Below are positions 12,063 through 20,960 of a stretch of 42,634 bases of DNA, one piece after another (the first letter of the stretch is position 1; the number at the start of each line of letters is the position of its first letter). Under the pieces are notes generated by a model. The model had not been told where the DNA came from, did no database searches, and saw nothing but the letters and a program-made list of their open reading frames with translations. Source of the DNA: Verrucomicrobiota bacterium (GTDB lineage: Bacteria; Verrucomicrobiota; Kiritimatiellia; Kiritimatiellales; Tichowtungiaceae); assembly GCA_030153935.1 (NCBI GenBank), contig JASKKX010000006.1:1-42634 (forward strand), read 5' to 3'. Both the position numbers and the translations under genes were made by a program.

Positions 12063-14186
12063 TCATTTTTTATCTGCCGGGCGATGGGGACGCAAGGTGG
12101 TGCGGGTTAGCCGTGCCGCATTACGGACCGCTTCACAGGCCTGTTCATAGAAGAACTGCTGGCTGTTTATTTTTTTCTTCTTCCGACCGGGAAGTGCTGC
12201 GGTACGGACGTAGGTTCCATCGGAGAGGAGTGTCCAGCTTTTAACCGTATCGTCGCAGTGGGTTTTGATGATTTGAATCAGTCGCTGACGGCTTGGAGGG
12301 TCTTCAATCGGAATCATCAGTTCGACCCGCCGGTCGAGATTACGCGGCATCCAGTCGGCGCTGGATATGAAAACTTTTTCTTCGCCGTTTCGATAGAAGT
12401 AGAAAATGCGGGCATGTTCGAGATAACGGCCGACGATGCTGATGACGGTAATATTTTTGCTCAGATCCGGTATGCCGGGCTGCAGGCAGCAGATGCCACG
12501 CACGTTGAGTTTGATGCGCACACCGGCCTGCGAGGCTTCGTAGAGCTTTTCGATGAGGATTTCATCAACCAAGGAGTTCATTTTAAGCAGAATCTGTGCT
12601 TTTTGTCCCTGCCGGCTGCGCTCGATTTCCCCGTCGATCAGTTCGATCAGCCGGTTGCGAATCGACAGCGGTGCCATGCAGATTTTACGCAGACCGGAGG
12701 GCTGAGAATAGCCGCAGACTGCGTTGAAGAAGGCAGAGGCATCCGATCCGAGGGCATCGTCGCAGGTCATGAAACTGATATCGCTGTAGAGTTTGGCGGT
12801 GGAATCGTTGTAGTTGCCGGTTCCGTAATGGACGTAGCGCACAATACCCTGCAGTTCGCGCCGAACGATCAGGCAGACTTTGGCGTGTGTTTTGAGCCCC
12901 TGTACTCCGTAGACAACCTGCACTCCGGCTTGTTCCAGACGTTGCGCCCAGTTGATGTTGCGTTCTTCGTCGAAGCGGGCCTTGAGCTCGACGAGCGCGG
13001 TGACCGACTTGCCTGTTTCAGCGGCATCTGCCAGCGCTGCGATGATCGGGCTTGCGCTGCTGGTGCGGTAGAGAACCTGTTTAATAGCCAATACAGAAGG
13101 GTCGCGCGCCGCTTCTTCAATCAGCCGGACAACCGGGTCGAAGCTTTCATACGGGTGGTAAAGCAGGATGTCGGCAGCGGCAATCTGCTCAACCATCGGC
13201 TGATGCCGGTCAATTTGCGGTGAAGGCTGCGGATACCAGTCCTCCGACTTGAGTTCACTGAATCCTTCAATCTGGGCGAGGGGCATGAAATCTTTCAGAT
13301 TCAGCGGCCCATTGATTCGGAAAACGTCGGATGGCGGGGTGTCCAGAAGAGACCCAAGGAAATTCTGCATGGAACGGGACGCGGAGGCCTCGATTTCGAG
13401 ACGAACGCAGTTGCTCCACCGACGCTCTTCAAGAATGGACGCCATACCGGAAAGCAAATCAGAGGCTTCATCCTCCCGTACCTCGATATCTGCATTGCGG
13501 GTCACGCGGAAGAGGGCGCATTCCAGCGCGGTAAGACCGCTGAACCAGCGTCCGATATGTTTTTTGATTACATCTTCGATCAGGATAAATACATGACTGT
13601 TTTCCGCGGGAAGGGAGATGAACCGTTCGAGCGGTTTTCCCAGAGACAGGACTGCGTAACGGTCCTCTGTTTCACCGGACTCGGGAGGAAAGCGGACAAG
13701 CAGGTAAAGTGTGAGATTCTGCAGGGCGGGCGTCGGCAGTTTTTCCTGCAGAGCAACCGGTGTAATTACAGGATAAATTTCGTCGCTGAACAGCCGCATA
13801 AGATACTGTTCCTGCTCGCCGTTGAGTTCCTCCGGCTTGATACGCACGATGCCCCCGGCAGCCAGTGCCGGTTCCAGGCTGTTTGTATAGCAGTCGTACT
13901 GCTCATCGATCATTTGACGGGTTCGTTTCTGGATGGCCTCCAGCTGCATTCGAGGAGTAAGCCCGGACGCATCAGCTTTGCGTTTTCCTGCTTTACGGAC
14001 CAACTGCAACCCCCCGACGCGCACCATAAAAAATTCATCCAGATTCGAGGCTGTGATCGACAGAAATTTCAGCCTCTCCAGCAGAGGATTCCGCGGATCT
14101 TTAGCTTCTTCCAGTACCCGTTGGTTGAAATCAATCCAGCTGAGTTCGCGATTAAAAAACTTTTTTGGTTTACTCGACATCATCAT
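12063..14186 (-). CDS. ppk: Polyphosphate kinase 1
   Basis: Reversibly polymerises the gamma-phosphate of ATP into inorganic polyphosphate. The 707-residue length and domain order match Ppk1: N-terminal FFNRELSWIDFN and SNLDEFFMVRVGG, the head domain, and two phospholipase-D-like catalytic halves. The phospho-accepting His lies in KTHAKVCLI and the second catalytic His in YLEHARIF. The gene begins with three consecutive ATG codons one base after the ppx stop and has no strong ribosome site, so it is probably translated by coupling to ppx. The C-terminal 35 residues are rich in Lys, Arg and aromatic residues. Making and breaking polyphosphate are thus encoded in one operon. Confidence 0.96.
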   Translation of the reverse strand: MMMSSKPKKFFNRELSWIDFNQRVLEEAKDPRNPLLERLKFLSITASNLDEFFMVRVGGLQLVRKAGKRKADASGLTPRMQLEAIQKRTRQMIDEQYDCYTNSLEPALAAGGIVRIKPEELNGEQEQYLMRLFSDEIYPVITPVALQEKLPTPALQNLTLYLLVRFPPESGETEDRYAVLSLGKPLERFISLPAENSHVFILIEDVIKKHIGRWFSGLTALECALFRVTRNADIEVREDEASDLLSGMASILEERRWSNCVRLEIEASASRSMQNFLGSLLDTPPSDVFRINGPLNLKDFMPLAQIEGFSELKSEDWYPQPSPQIDRHQPMVEQIAAADILLYHPYESFDPVVRLIEEAARDPSVLAIKQVLYRTSSASPIIAALADAAETGKSVTALVELKARFDEERNINWAQRLEQAGVQVVYGVQGLKTHAKVCLIVRRELQGIVRYVHYGTGNYNDSTAKLYSDISFMTCDDALGSDASAFFNAVCGYSQPSGLRKICMAPLSIRNRLIELIDGEIERSRQGQKAQILLKMNSLVDEILIEKLYEASQAGVRIKLNVRGICCLQPGIPDLSKNITVISIVGRYLEHARIFYFYRNGEEKVFISSADWMPRNLDRRVELMIPIEDPPSRQRLIQIIKTHCDDTVKSWTLLSDGTYVRTAALPGRKKKKINSQQFFYEQACEAVRNAARLTRTTLRPHRPADKK

Positions 14187-14187
14187 G

Positions 14188-15789
14188 TTATTTTCGTCTG
14201 GGACTTCGTTTCACAAGGAGCGCACGTTTTCCGTAGACCTGTTCAAAAAGATCGGATTTTTCACTGACGGCAATTTCTTCCACGGCGCAGTCACGCAGGT
14301 TGGAAACGCCGATCTGCAGGCGATCCGGAAACAGTAAAAACTGCGGATTGCGGATTCGCTGCACGTGCCCCCGATCCAGCCCATCCGCCACTCGAAGGAT
14401 CGCCGCGAGTTTGCTGACACGCAGGCGATTGACGCGCGTCAGGCGGGTATAATCAGTATGTGTTGAGCGAGGCAGTGCGCTGCGATGGTAGCGAACAGTC
14501 AATGCGGTGATCGTCCGATCCTGCTGACTCAGCCCGAAAATATCGCTGTTTTCAATTAGGTAGCGGCTGTGTTTGTGATGACTGCGGTTGCTGATGAAGG
14601 TTCCGATATCATGCAGCAGTGCGGCAACCGTCAGAATGGTCTCGTAACGCGGCAGCATTTTGTGTTCGTCCTGCATTACCCGGAAAATATCGCGGGCACG
14701 GGCGGCCACGTTTTCAGCATGGTCCTGATCGAACTGGTACCGCCGTCCGATTTCAACGGCAGAATGAATGATCTGCTGAGTGAACCGTTCGTCCCAGGCG
14801 CCTCCGGCGGCCATTTCCTGCAGCAGCCCGTCGCGCATGGAGGATGCTCCGATATAGACGGTTTTGCAATTCAGCATCTGCGGGATACTTTGCATAACCA
14901 GCAGCGCGGGACCCAGCGATTCCGCCGCTGCAAACGGCAGATGATATTCTTTCACCAGCTCCTCAACCGGCATCTCCAGACTCTGATCGGTGAAGCGCGC
15001 CAGTGTTGAGACCCGCAGGGACACAGACGGACGGGAATTCCATCCCGGTTTAATCTGATCCGCAGCCAGACGGGCATCTCCACCGAGAATCAGAATTTTC
15101 ATCTCTTTTTCATTCGCAAAGGGTTCGATAATCGGGCGGATTCCGGTGCGGATTTCACCCTCAATCAGATCGCGGAAACGAGCCGTCGGCAGGTACACGT
15201 CTTCCAGCATTTCACGCGTTCTGAAGGAGCCGAAGCGGTAGGTGTGGGCAAACAGGACGGTTCCGTCGCGCAGTCCCAGTGCAGTGGTATTGCCTCCGCC
15301 CACTTCTACGGCCAGCAGATTTCCTTTGCAGAGCGATGGATCCATTTGCAGAAGCGGCAGGATACTGAAATAGGTCAGACGATTGATTTCCGCCGTATCG
15401 ATGACCTCGACATTGATGCCGCTGGCCATGAAAATCCGATCGAGCAATACATCGCTGTTGGCGGCTTCGGCCACGGCGCTGGTTGCGACGGCGCGGACAC
15501 AGGCCGGGTCGGTTATCTGATATTGACGCAGCATCTCGCTGAAATCGCGGCAGACCCGCACACAGGCTTCAATTGTTTCTGAGCTGATCTTTCCTGAACT
15601 GAATGTATCACGGCCCAGATTCACGCTTTGTTCCAGAAACTCCAGTGTACGGGCCGGATTGCCGGAATCGATTTCGGCAATCATCATTCGGGCGGCTGTG
15701 GCTCCGATGTCAATGACAGCCCGAATGGCCGGTGGAGTGCTCTTTTTCTGATGTGTTTTTGTTTCGGGTTTCATACAACAACCTAACAT
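14188..15789 (-). CDS. ppx: Exopolyphosphatase / guanosine pentaphosphatase, Ppx/GppA family with HD domain
   Basis: Releases phosphate from polyphosphate chains or pppGpp. At 533 residues it has the sugar-kinase/Hsp70-like two-lobed core (AVIDIGATAARMMIAEI near residue 24, VATSAVAEAANS, VEVGGGNTTAL) and a C-terminal HD module (AALLHDIG, then HHKHSRYLI), as in long Ppx/GppA proteins. The phosphate loop reads EVGGGNTT instead of the common DIGGGSTE, so its catalytic Glu position should be checked. Two starts are possible: the first ATG at 15789 or Met6 at 15774; neither has a clear ribosome site. The ppk gene follows after one base. Confidence 0.92.
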   Translation of the reverse strand: MLGCCMKPETKTHQKKSTPPAIRAVIDIGATAARMMIAEIDSGNPARTLEFLEQSVNLGRDTFSSGKISSETIEACVRVCRDFSEMLRQYQITDPACVRAVATSAVAEAANSDVLLDRIFMASGINVEVIDTAEINRLTYFSILPLLQMDPSLCKGNLLAVEVGGGNTTALGLRDGTVLFAHTYRFGSFRTREMLEDVYLPTARFRDLIEGEIRTGIRPIIEPFANEKEMKILILGGDARLAADQIKPGWNSRPSVSLRVSTLARFTDQSLEMPVEELVKEYHLPFAAAESLGPALLVMQSIPQMLNCKTVYIGASSMRDGLLQEMAAGGAWDERFTQQIIHSAVEIGRRYQFDQDHAENVAARARDIFRVMQDEHKMLPRYETILTVAALLHDIGTFISNRSHHKHSRYLIENSDIFGLSQQDRTITALTVRYHRSALPRSTHTDYTRLTRVNRLRVSKLAAILRVADGLDRGHVQRIRNPQFLLFPDRLQIGVSNLRDCAVEEIAVSEKSDLFEQVYGKRALLVKRSPRRK

Positions 15790-15951: not shown

Positions 15952-16587
15952 TCAATGAGGATGACTTTTATTTCCGGTGAAGAAGAGCGGGAAGGCGATA
16001 TCGCTGAAGCAGCAGGGAACCCAGACGGCAATGAAGAGAAAGAGAATCAGGAAAATGCCCTGAACGAGGCTGAAACCGCCGTCGTGGGAGCGCAGGACGT
16101 GAAAGAGCGAGGCCATGGTGCTGAGCAGCACATGCCCGGCATGCGGAAAATAGGTTTTGCTGGAAAAAAAAGCCGCGCCGATGCCGAGCAGTGCCGCCAG
16201 ATTGATGATGGCCGGCATTTCAGTGATGCCCAAATGAACCTGCACGTGTTCCATGCCGAGAATCAGTTCCGCCCAGTACGGCACAATACAGTCGCTGACG
16301 GTGGCGATGCCGATGGACCCGAAATAGCCGACGAGCACCACGCCCAGCAGGCCGGACACGGAATGCTTTTCTTTGGAGCGGTAGTTGCGATACATCGCGG
16401 CGGTTACCATCGCGCTGAGCACGACGTGCAGTGGATGGGAAAATTCAAACAGGTTTTCCGCCCGCTCGGTGGACAGCACATCTGGAAACCAGTGGCGGAC
16501 TGCCATCATGATCACAACACTGGCCGCCGCGCCCAGCAGGGTGAACGGTCCGTGATGGCGGAGTTCTCTGAGCAGTTCAGATCTCAT
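15952..16587 (-). CDS. Six-helix membrane protein of unknown function
   Basis: 211 residues with about six hydrophobic segments (about 15-35, 50-68, 78-100, 124-140, 147-163, 172-205). Conserved-looking polar residues sit in the membrane parts: several His (SHPLHVV, MEHVQVH, HAGHVL, LFHVL), plus Asp and Cys, hinting at metal or cofactor handling, but no family was recognised. The start overlaps the oxidoreductase stop as ATGA, so it is translationally coupled and is the last gene of the operon led by the E1-KAS III fusion. That context suggests a role with the pathway product, for example in the membrane, but this is inference only. Confidence 0.8.
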   Translation of the reverse strand: MRSELLRELRHHGPFTLLGAAASVVIMMAVRHWFPDVLSTERAENLFEFSHPLHVVLSAMVTAAMYRNYRSKEKHSVSGLLGVVLVGYFGSIGIATVSDCIVPYWAELILGMEHVQVHLGITEMPAIINLAALLGIGAAFFSSKTYFPHAGHVLLSTMASLFHVLRSHDGGFSLVQGIFLILFLFIAVWVPCCFSDIAFPLFFTGNKSHPH

Positions 16588-17618
16588 TGCCGCACCGGCA
16601 CCGTTCCTCCGGTCTGCATGCTTCGAAAAACCGCTTCCGTGAATTCCATGTATTTTACTCCGTCCTCAAAAGAGGTCCGGGTAACCGCCGCGGTGCCACG
16701 AATGGCGGCAATAAATTCCTCTTCCACGTGCCAGCCGCCTTCTTCTTCCGGCGGAATTTCAACCGGAGAAAAGCCGGTGGAACTGCGGCTGTATATGCTG
16801 AGGGCTTCTCCGCGGATCCTCAGCGTTGCTTCACTTCCGTACAGCAGGGCCTCATTCCGGGCGCAGCCCCCGGTGACGGAAGACATCAGCAGTATGGCCT
16901 GCGCGCCGCAGTTCATGTCCGCAATAACGCTCAGGTGATCGGGAATCCGAACCTTTTTCTGAGTGCCTGTTTCGGGGTCAAGCCGGTGCGTGACGGCGAC
17001 TTTTCCTTTTGCAATAACTTCCGAGGCTTCCCCCACCCAGCGCATCAGGGCCTCATACCATATTCCCAGCAGAAGAACATTCATTCCGCTGCGATCGGCA
17101 TCCTGCCGCCAACTGAGTGGGGCATCCCGGTCCAGAAAGGTGCCGGGTGAGGAGAACAGCTCAATGGCCAGCAGGTCGCCTAAACGACCTTCCTTCAATA
17201 GACGGATGACCGTTTGGTCCACTTTGAGAGTGATGGGTGACGGGACAATTTGTGCAACCTGTTCCGGATGCTGTTCGGCCGCAGCCAGCATGCGGCGTGC
17301 TTCGTCGGCATTCATGGCCATGCGGGCTTCGCACAGGACGTGCTTCCCGGCCTCCAGTGCGGCCAGGGTGACCGGGCAGTGCATGCAGGGCCAGGTTCCG
17401 ATGACTATGGCGTCCGTATCCGGCGCGGCCACAAGTTCCTCCCAGGAATCATACACGGTCCCGATTGAAAACGTTTCGGCGACACGCTCCGCGGAACTCC
17501 GGCTGCGGTTGGCGACACTGACGATTTCAACGCCATCGATTCGTTGCAGTCCGGGAATATGCATCTTGCGAGTATTGGCGCCGGCGCCGACAATTCCAAT
17601 GCGGACAGGTTGTTTCAT
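16584..17618 (-). CDS. Gfo/Idh/MocA family oxidoreductase
   Basis: NAD(P)-dependent dehydrogenase family acting on sugars, cyclitols and similar alcohols. The 344-residue protein has an N-terminal Rossmann nucleotide motif (GIVGAGANTRKMH, residues 8-20), the IGTWPCMHCPVTLAALEAGK region, and a C-terminal alpha/beta substrate domain. The usual EKP catalytic motif after GKHVL reads CEAR here, so the conserved Lys is missing; the catalytic mode or even activity is uncertain. GGAGGG precedes the ATG by about 5 nt. It begins 12 nt after the fusion gene and overlaps the downstream membrane gene, so all three form one operon. Substrate unknown. Confidence 0.88.
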   Translation of the reverse strand: MKQPVRIGIVGAGANTRKMHIPGLQRIDGVEIVSVANRSRSSAERVAETFSIGTVYDSWEELVAAPDTDAIVIGTWPCMHCPVTLAALEAGKHVLCEARMAMNADEARRMLAAAEQHPEQVAQIVPSPITLKVDQTVIRLLKEGRLGDLLAIELFSSPGTFLDRDAPLSWRQDADRSGMNVLLLGIWYEALMRWVGEASEVIAKGKVAVTHRLDPETGTQKKVRIPDHLSVIADMNCGAQAILLMSSVTGGCARNEALLYGSEATLRIRGEALSIYSRSSTGFSPVEIPPEEEGGWHVEEEFIAAIRGTAAVTRTSFEDGVKYMEFTEAVFRSMQTGGTVPVRQ

Positions 17619-17630
17619 AAGGCCCTCCGG

Positions 17631-20600
17631 TTATTGTTTTTCGATGACAGCCGCGCCGAAGGTGAAACCACCGCCGAACGCGGTGAGGCCGACTAATGCA
17701 TCTTTATCCATTAGCGGCATCAGTTCCGCCAGTGCAAACGGAATCGTGTTTGATGATGTATTGGCGTATTTGCGGATATGGTTGAACATTTTTTCCGGCG
17801 GGCAGTGAATCGATTTCCGGATGGCTTCGATGATTCGTTCGTTGGCCTGATGAGGCACAATTTTATCGAGCTGTTCTATGGATATCCCGCGGGTTTCACA
17901 GGCTTCGGCAAGCATATCGATCATTTTGCGTACGGCCAGTTTGAATACGGTGAGACCTTCCATTTCGATTTTTTCCGTTCCGCCCATAGTGGGGACATAG
18001 AGCACTTTTTTGTCTACGCCGGTGGCGGAGAGAACGGGCCGATTGATGAGTGCGTTAACCCTGCCGCCGCGCGACTCGCAGGAAAGCAGTGATGCGGTTG
18101 CGGCATCACCGAAGAGAACACTGGTTTTCGGGTCGTTGAGATTGATCATCGGAGAAAGAGTTTCGGCCGTGATGACAACCACCTTTTTCGACGGGTCGTC
18201 GCGCAGGATATCCACAGCATTCTGCAGCGCGTACATGTAGCCGGAGCAGGCGGCATTGACGTCGTGGGCCTGCATCAGGATTCCGCCCTTGGCCGGGCTG
18301 AGTTCTTTGAGGACGCAGCAGGCGAGGGACGGGGTCATTTCCAGCGGTGTGCCGGTGGAACAGATCAATGCATCAATGTCGGAAATAAGAAGTTTTTCTT
18401 TTTCGAGCAGATCACGGGTGGCCTTGACAGCAAGGGTGAGCACGGTTTCGCCTTCACCGATCCAGTAACGGGTTTCAATGCCGGTACGTCTGCGGATGGC
18501 TTCAGAATCCCATTCATCGCCCGGCTTGACCAGTTCGTCGTTGGTTATTCTGCGCGATCCAAGCACCGTGCTGATCGAGGAGAGCAGCACCGGTTTCTTT
18601 TCCGCGGAAACGGCGTTCCTGTTTACCGGAGCGGCAGTAACCCGTCTTTCGAGAATCGGGGTGCCGGGATTTTCTTTCGTAACCGGTTTTTTTATCAGAT
18701 CGGTTTCTTCGGTGGCGATTCGTACCAGCGGCGTACCGACATCGACCGAGTCGCCTTCGGTCAGAAAGAGTTCTTCAATGATTCCGCTGACCGGTGTGGA
18801 GATTTCCATCGTTGCTTTGTCGGCTTCAACGGAAGCCAGCAATTCGCCCGCCTGGACAGGCTGCCCGGTTTTGACGTGCAGTTCAACCACGGTTACCGTT
18901 TTGTCGGACGGGCTGGAACCGATGGCGTTGACGGTGACAAACCCTTCCGCTTCTTCGACCGGTTTCTGCCAGGTCAGCGAATAGTTAAGCAGTTCTGCCG
19001 CTTTTTCAAGGATCGTGCGAAAAGAGGGCAGCACCTGAATCTGTGTTTCAAAGAGGTAAGGAACATAGGTATCGTATCGTGTGACGCGTGCCATTTTTAC
19101 AGGAGCCTCTGCCTTTTCTGCGACTGTTGCAAGGATTTCGCCGCCGAGCCCGCAGGTATGGTTGTCTTCATGAACGACCAGCAGTTTTCCGGTTTTTTCA
19201 GCGGATGCGAGGACGGTGTCCTGGTCCCATGGTGAAAGCGAACGCAGATCGATCACTTCCACGGATGAACCCGCTTCTTGAAGTGCATCCGCGGTCTTTT
19301 CGCAAAGCGGCAGGGTACTGCCCCAGCTGACAATCGTCAGATCACGGCCTGGTCGGGTGATACGGGCCCTCCCGATCGGGACAAACTGTGTCGCCGCGTC
19401 TGCGGCCGCGGCGAGAGAGCGATCGTTGATCAGATTTTTCGGGAAGAGAAATACCGTCGGGCGACCTGAGTCGAAGGCGGCATTGAGCAGTCCGGCCGCA
19501 TCGGCGGCGGTTGAAGGCATAAAGACATCGAGGCCGGGGATGTGTGCGAAGGTGGCATCGAAAGTCTGAGCGTGGTACGGTCCGAGGCCGGGGCGGTAGG
19601 CGCCGCAGATGGCCATCAGAATAACCGGGCATTCCCACTGTCCGTTGCTGCGCCACCATATGGCACCGAGTTCGGAGGCGATCTGGTTGAAGGCCGGCAG
19701 CATAAAATCCACGAATTGAATGCAGGCGACCGGCTTTTTGCCGGTGAACGATTGTCCGATGGCCGCGCCGACGATGGTGGACTCACTGAGCGGAGAATTG
19801 ATCACCTGCGCGGGAAAATCCGTGCTGAGTCCGCGCGTCAGGCCGAATACATCGCCTTTCGGATCCTCAATATCTTCGCCATAGAGATAAATATCTTTGT
19901 CGCTTTCAAGGCGGGCGCGGAAGACAGCGCGCAACGCTTCGATCATGGTGAGGGCGTCCCCGTCGGCCCGCTGTTCGCTTTCTGCGGCGGTCATCTTTTC
20001 CGGCAGCGGTTTTTTTGCTGAAAACTCAACTCCGGCATTGGGTACTTTGCGCGCGGCGGAGAAGGCTTCGTCGATTTCACGGTTTATCTCGTGTTCGATT
20101 TTTTTGAGCTGTTCTTCCGCAATTCCGGCATCGAGCAGTTTCTTCGCCAGAATTCGAACCGGGTCCGCTTTTTCATTGACTGCGCGGATTTCCTCCGCAG
20201 AACGATAGACGGTTTGGTCATCGGAATTGGTATGGCTGGCCAGCCGTTCGACCTTCATCACCACGATCTGCGGGCCGCGGGTTTCCCGGATATTGGAAAC
20301 GGCTTCGCCGAAAATGCGATGGGTTGCGACAGCGTCAGTGCCGTCAACGCGCAAAATCGGCAGGCCGTAGAATTCGTCGGCATCACCGTCCGGCAACGAA
20401 AAGAAAGTACGGCCTTTAGACAGGGTGGAAAGGGCGTAGCGATTATCCTGGACCACAAAGAGCACCGGGAGTTGTGAGCGGACGGCTTCGGCCACCGCTT
20501 CGAAGAATTCGCCTTCCTGTGTGCCGCCGTCGCCGATGCCGCAGTATACGACCGGCCTGGATGCATCCTGCTTCACCGCCTGGGCAACCCCGACCGCCTG

Positions 20601-20960
20601 GACGGTGCTGGTTCCGACGCCGGTGGGGGCGCTGAGCAGTTTCAATTTGCGATCGCAGGCGAAGCAGGGCATGCGGCGACCGTCGGACGAGGAACCGGTC
20701 TTGCCGAGCAGATCGAGCAGCAGATCTTTCTGGGTAACGCCGCGGGCAAGCATCAGGGCGCGATCACGATAATGGCAGTGAAGCCAGTCGTGTTCGGTTA
20801 AATGCGGCGCAAGAGCCGCTATCGCCTCGTGGCCGGCGGTAGAAACGTAGAAAAAGGCCTCACCTCGCTGGGCGGCATCTGCCTGAACAGCGTCTGCTTT
20901 GCGTGACGAAAGCATGCTGCGGTAAATATTGAGAAAGAGTTTTGTATCAAGTTTCTGCAT
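17631..20960 (-). CDS. Fusion: 2-oxoacid dehydrogenase E1-alpha + E1-beta + lipoyl domain + beta-ketoacyl-ACP synthase III
   Basis: 1109 residues from the ATG at 20960; homology to E1-alpha begins there, and the in-frame extension further upstream has no family features. Domains: E1-alpha about 1-315 (HYRDRA, TPP motif GDG at 143-145 ending at Asn173); E1-beta about 337-657 (YGEDIEDPKGDVFG, GPYHAQTFDATFAH, VHEDNHTCGLGGE); lipoyl domain about 670-750 with EADKATMEI, lipoylated Lys about 715; Ala/Pro/Lys linker; KAS III about 791-1109 with intact triad Cys905 (NAACSGY), His1037 (PHQANER) and Asn1067 (YANTSSNT). E1 decarboxylates branched-chain or related 2-oxoacids and reductively acylates lipoyl; KAS III condenses an acyl primer with malonyl-ACP. 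No E2 acyltransferase domain is present, and no E3 lies in the window. The gene leads a three-gene operon and is divergent from ygiQ. Confidence 0.93.
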   Translation of the reverse strand: MQKLDTKLFLNIYRSMLSSRKADAVQADAAQRGEAFFYVSTAGHEAIAALAPHLTEHDWLHCHYRDRALMLARGVTQKDLLLDLLGKTGSSSDGRRMPCFACDRKLKLLSAPTGVGTSTVQAVGVAQAVKQDASRPVVYCGIGDGGTQEGEFFEAVAEAVRSQLPVLFVVQDNRYALSTLSKGRTFFSLPDGDADEFYGLPILRVDGTDAVATHRIFGEAVSNIRETRGPQIVVMKVERLASHTNSDDQTVYRSAEEIRAVNEKADPVRILAKKLLDAGIAEEQLKKIEHEINREIDEAFSAARKVPNAGVEFSAKKPLPEKMTAAESEQRADGDALTMIEALRAVFRARLESDKDIYLYGEDIEDPKGDVFGLTRGLSTDFPAQVINSPLSESTIVGAAIGQSFTGKKPVACIQFVDFMLPAFNQIASELGAIWWRSNGQWECPVILMAICGAYRPGLGPYHAQTFDATFAHIPGLDVFMPSTAADAAGLLNAAFDSGRPTVFLFPKNLINDRSLAAAADAATQFVPIGRARITRPGRDLTIVSWGSTLPLCEKTADALQEAGSSVEVIDLRSLSPWDQDTVLASAEKTGKLLVVHEDNHTCGLGGEILATVAEKAEAPVKMARVTRYDTYVPYLFETQIQVLPSFRTILEKAAELLNYSLTWQKPVEEAEGFVTVNAIGSSPSDKTVTVVELHVKTGQPVQAGELLASVEADKATMEISTPVSGIIEELFLTEGDSVDVGTPLVRIATEETDLIKKPVTKENPGTPILERRVTAAPVNRNAVSAEKKPVLLSSISTVLGSRRITNDELVKPGDEWDSEAIRRRTGIETRYWIGEGETVLTLAVKATRDLLEKEKLLISDIDALICSTGTPLEMTPSLACCVLKELSPAKGGILMQAHDVNAACSGYMYALQNAVDILRDDPSKKVVVITAETLSPMINLNDPKTSVLFGDAATASLLSCESRGGRVNALINRPVLSATGVDKKVLYVPTMGGTEKIEMEGLTVFKLAVRKMIDMLAEACETRGISIEQLDKIVPHQANERIIEAIRKSIHCPPEKMFNHIRKYANTSSNTIPFALAELMPLMDKDALVGLTAFGGGFTFGAAVIEKQ

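Follow-up and report, generated by a model that had tools for sequence, protein, structure and literature searches.

A single gene in the 42,634-nucleotide stretch of Verrucomicrobiota DNA analysed here (the window) joins E1-alpha and E1-beta of a 2-oxoacid dehydrogenase, a lipoyl domain and a KAS III ketosynthase in one polypeptide. We propose, with a probability of roughly 0.6, that its product primes branched fatty-acid synthesis within one chain, where an isobutyryl starter would travel from E1 via the lipoyl domain to KAS III. The more specific claim of a CoA-independent fatty-acid start, with a lipoyl-bound acyl group from a TPP enzyme being handed to the ketosynthase of the same chain, we rate as slightly better than even. 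Textbook synthesis of branched fatty acids starts from acyl-CoA that a separate dehydrogenase complex supplies, and we know of no characterised system in which a lipoyl domain carries acyl groups to a condensing enzyme. A search of the open-access literature found no earlier description of the fusion.

The fused gene occupies positions 17631–20960 of the minus strand (1109 aa plus stop), all parts in one frame. The longest open frame around it spans 21134–17631 on the same strand (1167 aa). Translation likely starts at the ATG at 20960, because conservation sets in at about residue 60 of the longer frame and because of the gap of ~75 bases to the divergent YgiQ gene; residue numbers below follow the 1109-aa form. 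All Pfam matches lie far over their cut-offs, both in the E1 part (E1_dh, 1.9e-52; Transket_pyr, 3.4e-24; Transketolase_C, 3.6e-31) and in the remainder (Biotin_lipoyl, 7.4e-17; ACP_syn_III, 1.3e-18; ACP_syn_III_C, 5.5e-23). The E1-alpha domain (20034–20924, minus strand, as are all parts that follow) carries the TPP motif GDG and a branched-chain-type SHTNSDD motif, and E1-beta (Transket_pyr plus Transketolase_C; 19041–19955) contains an invariant His463. The lipoyl domain (18717–18938) includes Lys715 (18816–18818; Lys773 of the 1167-aa frame) and is followed by a linker of ~44 residues (18585–18716). The KAS III domain (17640–18584) contains the nucleophile Cys905 (18246–18248), His1037 (17850–17852) and Asn1067 (17760–17762). 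The E2 core 2-oxoacid_dh (PF00198) had no Pfam match in the chain or in the scanned adjacent genes, and E3_binding, the peripheral subunit-binding domain, had none in the window protein or its relatives. The sequence-only reading of this stretch had described the four-part polypeptide, placed the lipoyl lysine at about 715 and the triad at Cys905/His1037/Asn1067, and noted the missing E2 acyltransferase core; all of this is borne out, with the residue positions exact.

The fusion recurs well beyond the window. In a phylum sample of 289 genomes, 26 homologues were full-length and in a single frame; one of these is the window's own protein, to which the remaining 25 show 46–79% identity. A search of the class found it in 59 of 346 genomes: in all 14 of the window's genus, in 26 of 29 from the sister family (the three without it being 72–84% complete) and scattered through other families. 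Four genomes outside the class have it as well. Carriers comprise Tichowtungia-like genomes, Pontiellaceae and other Verrucomicrobiota; in a second collection they were Kiritimatiellales, including Pontiella sulfatireligans F21(T) (L097) and Pontiellaceae isolates. In one genome of the same genus (G081), the fusion lies on a single contig of 3,882,676 bases. An assembly or frameshift artefact is ruled out by these isolates and by 43 distinct intact full-length homologues from independently assembled genomes, which also disposes of the junction misassembly that the sequence-only reading had considered. These 43 proteins form the basis of all conservation counts given here for the fusion. The lipoyl lysine and the Cys-His-Asn triad are invariant (43/43), and the His-x-Asn-x-Asp-Asp motif of E1-alpha and the histidine of E1-beta are kept in all of them; the sequence of the lipoyl–KAS III linker is variable.

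Searches against solved structures ranked branched-chain E1s first for the fused E1, and its nearest relatives in other Verrucomicrobiota are single-chain proteins in which E1-alpha, E1-beta and a lipoyl domain are followed by an E2 core. The E1 tree resolved KAS fusions and E2 fusions as sister clades (support 100 each, joined at SH-aLRT 99), with the pair adjoining the Thermus branched-chain E1 and the other E1s of the window's genome placed elsewhere. Structure ranking, motif and tree placement thus agree with the branched-chain 2-oxoacid link made from the letters alone, and by these measures the fused E1 resembles the branched-chain type. The same chain position is thus held in one lineage by the E2 acyltransferase, which passes the lipoyl-bound acyl group on to CoA, and in its sister by a KAS III ketosynthase. 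The E1 tree does not give the order in which the two arrangements arose. The E2-fused proteins (L031, L032, L124–L131) are themselves of note as all-in-one 2-oxoacid dehydrogenases of ~1030–1090 aa (one frame of 1471 aa) that have no E3-binding domain.

We envisage the following reaction sequence. The E1 half, with TPP, would decarboxylate a branched 2-oxoacid and load the acyl group reductively onto the lipoyl arm; the most likely substrate is 2-oxoisovalerate, which would give isobutyryl-dihydrolipoyl. Swinging on flexible linkers, the arm would pass the isobutyryl group to the KAS III cysteine, and condensation with malonyl-ACP would yield 4-methyl-3-oxopentanoyl-ACP and CO2. Reoxidation of the arm would fall to a dihydrolipoyl dehydrogenase (E3) whose gene lies elsewhere. 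The net reaction would be 2-oxoisovalerate + malonyl-ACP + NAD+ giving a branched 3-oxoacyl-ACP, 2 CO2 and NADH, with no acyl-CoA intermediate. The predicted structure of the fused protein (mean pLDDT 76, pTM 0.60) places the E1-beta region close to solved branched-chain E1 structures and the KAS region close to FabH structures. Low-confidence stretches of the linker (residues 754–764 and 774–787) are probably flexible, judging from the model.

The window's genome encodes the partners for such a cycle. An E3 of 467 aa is found at C48, where it adjoins an E2 gene and is unlinked to the fused gene, as had been supposed from the window sequence; LipA is encoded at C35, and a ketol-acid reductoisomerase, for 2-oxoisovalerate supply, at C87. 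A second, partial LipA-like gene lies at a contig end (C78:5-487; L159). An AceE-type pyruvate dehydrogenase is present at C76 and an additional E1–E2 set at C57. Separately, genes for an E1-beta, a protein resembling D-2-hydroxyacid dehydrogenases and a sugar kinase (L153:65-3720) lie near the gene of a free 82-aa lipoyl protein (L036; C55), a group that looks like another TPP/lipoyl system.

A comparison with standalone FabH (E. coli FabH numbering throughout) bears on the identity of the acyl donor. Every one of the 26 fusion genomes searched also has a standalone FabH scoring at least 425 bits (425–459, versus 250–283 for the fused KAS domains), and we consider the fused KAS a dedicated paralogue for this reason. 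Its being the cell's sole FabH is ruled out by a separate canonical FabH that adjoins fabD in the window's genome. The fused KAS of the window passes the family model NCBIfam PRK09352 (262.6 bits; cut-off 249) and falls below the cut-off of the narrower TIGR00747 fabH (227.7 versus 292.1). The KAS tree groups the fused domains in a single clade (SH-aLRT 99), separate from the resident FabHs. In FabH, the adenine of CoA is stacked between Trp32 and Arg151 (PMC4606726). Both are present in all 26 standalone enzymes and in none of the 43 fusions, so that these residues of the acyl-CoA donor site are missing from the fused KAS III. A mere displacement of Trp32 by an insertion was considered and set aside: phmmer aligned E-A-I to E-W-I without gaps relative to RTG, which makes the loss look real. 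Position 87 is Phe in 26/26 standalone FabHs and Thr in 43/43 fusions. Phe87 is a bulky gate that favours acetyl-CoA, and Thr87 admits larger acyl groups (PMC3734052). All 43 fusions retain Arg249, the ACP-docking residue at the entrance for ACP.

This pattern fits a donor other than CoA, without proving that the donor is the lipoyl arm. Among 12 unfused, divergent KAS III paralogues from fusion genomes, examined as a control, Trp32 is absent in 12 and Arg151 in 10, which weakens the argument from the CoA residues: sequence divergence, or the use of acyl-ACP as donor, can also account for their loss. Unlike the fusions, however, none of the same 12 paralogues has Arg249, and only one has Arg36. 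The fusion might also bring mere proximity, such that the E2 of another complex takes the acyl group off the fused lipoyl domain and places it on CoA, with KAS III then using the acyl-CoA like an ordinary FabH. The genome has three E2 genes and its other E1 and E2 genes could supply acyl-CoA, and Arg36 is kept in 39 of the 43 fusions; we nevertheless regard this as unlikely in view of the uniform absence of Trp32 and Arg151 from the fusions and of the E2-fused sister lineage, from which it seems that KAS III came to occupy the place of E2. The retention of Arg36 and Asn247 weighs neither way, since both residues also contact the pantetheine arm, a group that malonyl-ACP has as well.

The position of KAS III in the fused chain also invites the idea that it replaces E2 as an acyltransferase, moving the acyl group from the lipoyl domain to ACP or to CoA with no condensation step. 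A degree of transacylase activity is known from FabH enzymes, which speaks for it. Acyltransferase-type KAS III enzymes such as CerJ, however, have altered triads, and every fusion keeps the histidine and asparagine by which malonyl-ACP is decarboxylated; we give this version very little credence. Direct transfer from the lipoyl arm to the KAS III cysteine, followed by condensation, remains our preferred reading. A handover of this kind that bypasses CoA was also what the sequence-only reading proposed, and those of its points that sequence can address are supported here.

The surroundings of the gene count against the fatty-acid reading. No conserved operon with fatty-acid genes was found around it among relatives, in which the sole recurring neighbour is a divergent PtsP gene. 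In the window, a Gfo/Idh/MocA oxidoreductase gene (16584–17618) starts 12 bases past the stop of the fused gene and is probably co-transcribed with it; this arrangement is not conserved in relatives. Farther along, a polyphosphate kinase gene (PPK1) adjoins a Ppx/GppA phosphatase gene (12063–15789, minus strand).

The product can also be approached through the membrane lipids of cultured hosts. Even-numbered iso chains derive from an isobutyryl starter and thus from 2-oxoisovalerate, and odd iso and anteiso chains are usual where a broad Bkd complex feeds FabH. The acids above 5% in Pontiella desulfatans and P. sulfatireligans are C18:0, i-C12:0, i-C14:0 and i-C18:0, along with i-C16:0 (PMC7356697); P. 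agarivorans contains C16, C18 and C20 acids and i-C12 to i-C20, all even, and T. aerotolerans C18:0, i-C12:0, i-C18:0 and i-C16:0 (PMC10880615). The major branched acids of cultured relatives are therefore even iso forms only, with no odd iso or anteiso acids among the major ones (PMC7356697, PMC10880615). A dedicated, 2-oxoisovalerate-specific primer would account for this pattern, the link being correlative. Kiritimatiella glycovorans also has i-C14:0, which would count against our preferred reading if that species lacks the fusion.

We infer the substrate from E1 similarity and this phenotype, and the same transfer might instead serve another 2-oxoacid (pyruvate, an aromatic or a longer one) and lead to a specialised lipid or polyketide in place of membrane iso acids. 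Such a role would suit the larger acyl groups that Thr87 can admit (PMC3734052), the lack of fatty-acid genes in the neighbourhood and the presence of a normal FabH that already serves fatty-acid synthesis. We consider it improbable, given that nearly all genomes of two families carry the gene, fermenters with even-iso membranes among them (PMC7356697; PMC10880615), that it lies outside any biosynthetic cluster and that the similarity of its E1 points to branched-chain enzymes.

If the isobutyryl-priming role is true, one chain couples the oxidation of a 2-oxoacid directly to C–C bond formation, and lipoic acid gains a donor role toward a condensing enzyme. It would also explain why cultured Pontiellaceae and Tichowtungia have even-iso membranes, and the gene would offer a one-gene tool for iso fatty acid production in E. 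coli.

Among known systems, the best sequence and fold matches of the fused E1 are the branched-chain E1s of Thermus thermophilus (1UM9), Pseudomonas putida (1QS0) and human (1DTW). The fusion shares with them the E1-alpha and E1-beta folds, the TPP motif and the SHxxxDD and His residues, and differs in having alpha, beta and lipoyl parts as one chain that continues into KAS III. Like the branched-chain 2-oxoacid dehydrogenase complex, it keeps a modifiable lipoyl lysine, which is predicted to be lipoylated; unlike that complex, it has neither an E2 acyltransferase core nor a subunit-binding domain. With KAS III/FabH enzymes (E. coli FabH, Aquifex 2EBD, B. subtilis FabHA 8VD9) it has the fold, the Cys-His-Asn triad and Arg249 in common, but its KAS is joined to E1 and lipoyl domains, has lost Trp32 and Arg151 and has Thr in place of Phe87. 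The Verrucomicrobiota E1-lipoyl-E2 proteins follow the same order up to the lipoyl domain and end in an E2 core with a DHRxxxG-type motif, where the fusion ends in KAS III. The fusion would share its overall chemistry, from a branched 2-oxoacid to a branched 3-oxoacyl-ACP, with the route by which Bacillus, Staphylococcus and Xanthomonas prime branched fatty acids through Bkd and FabH. That route runs over several proteins, its E2 releasing an acyl-CoA that diffuses, whereas the fusion would work within one chain.
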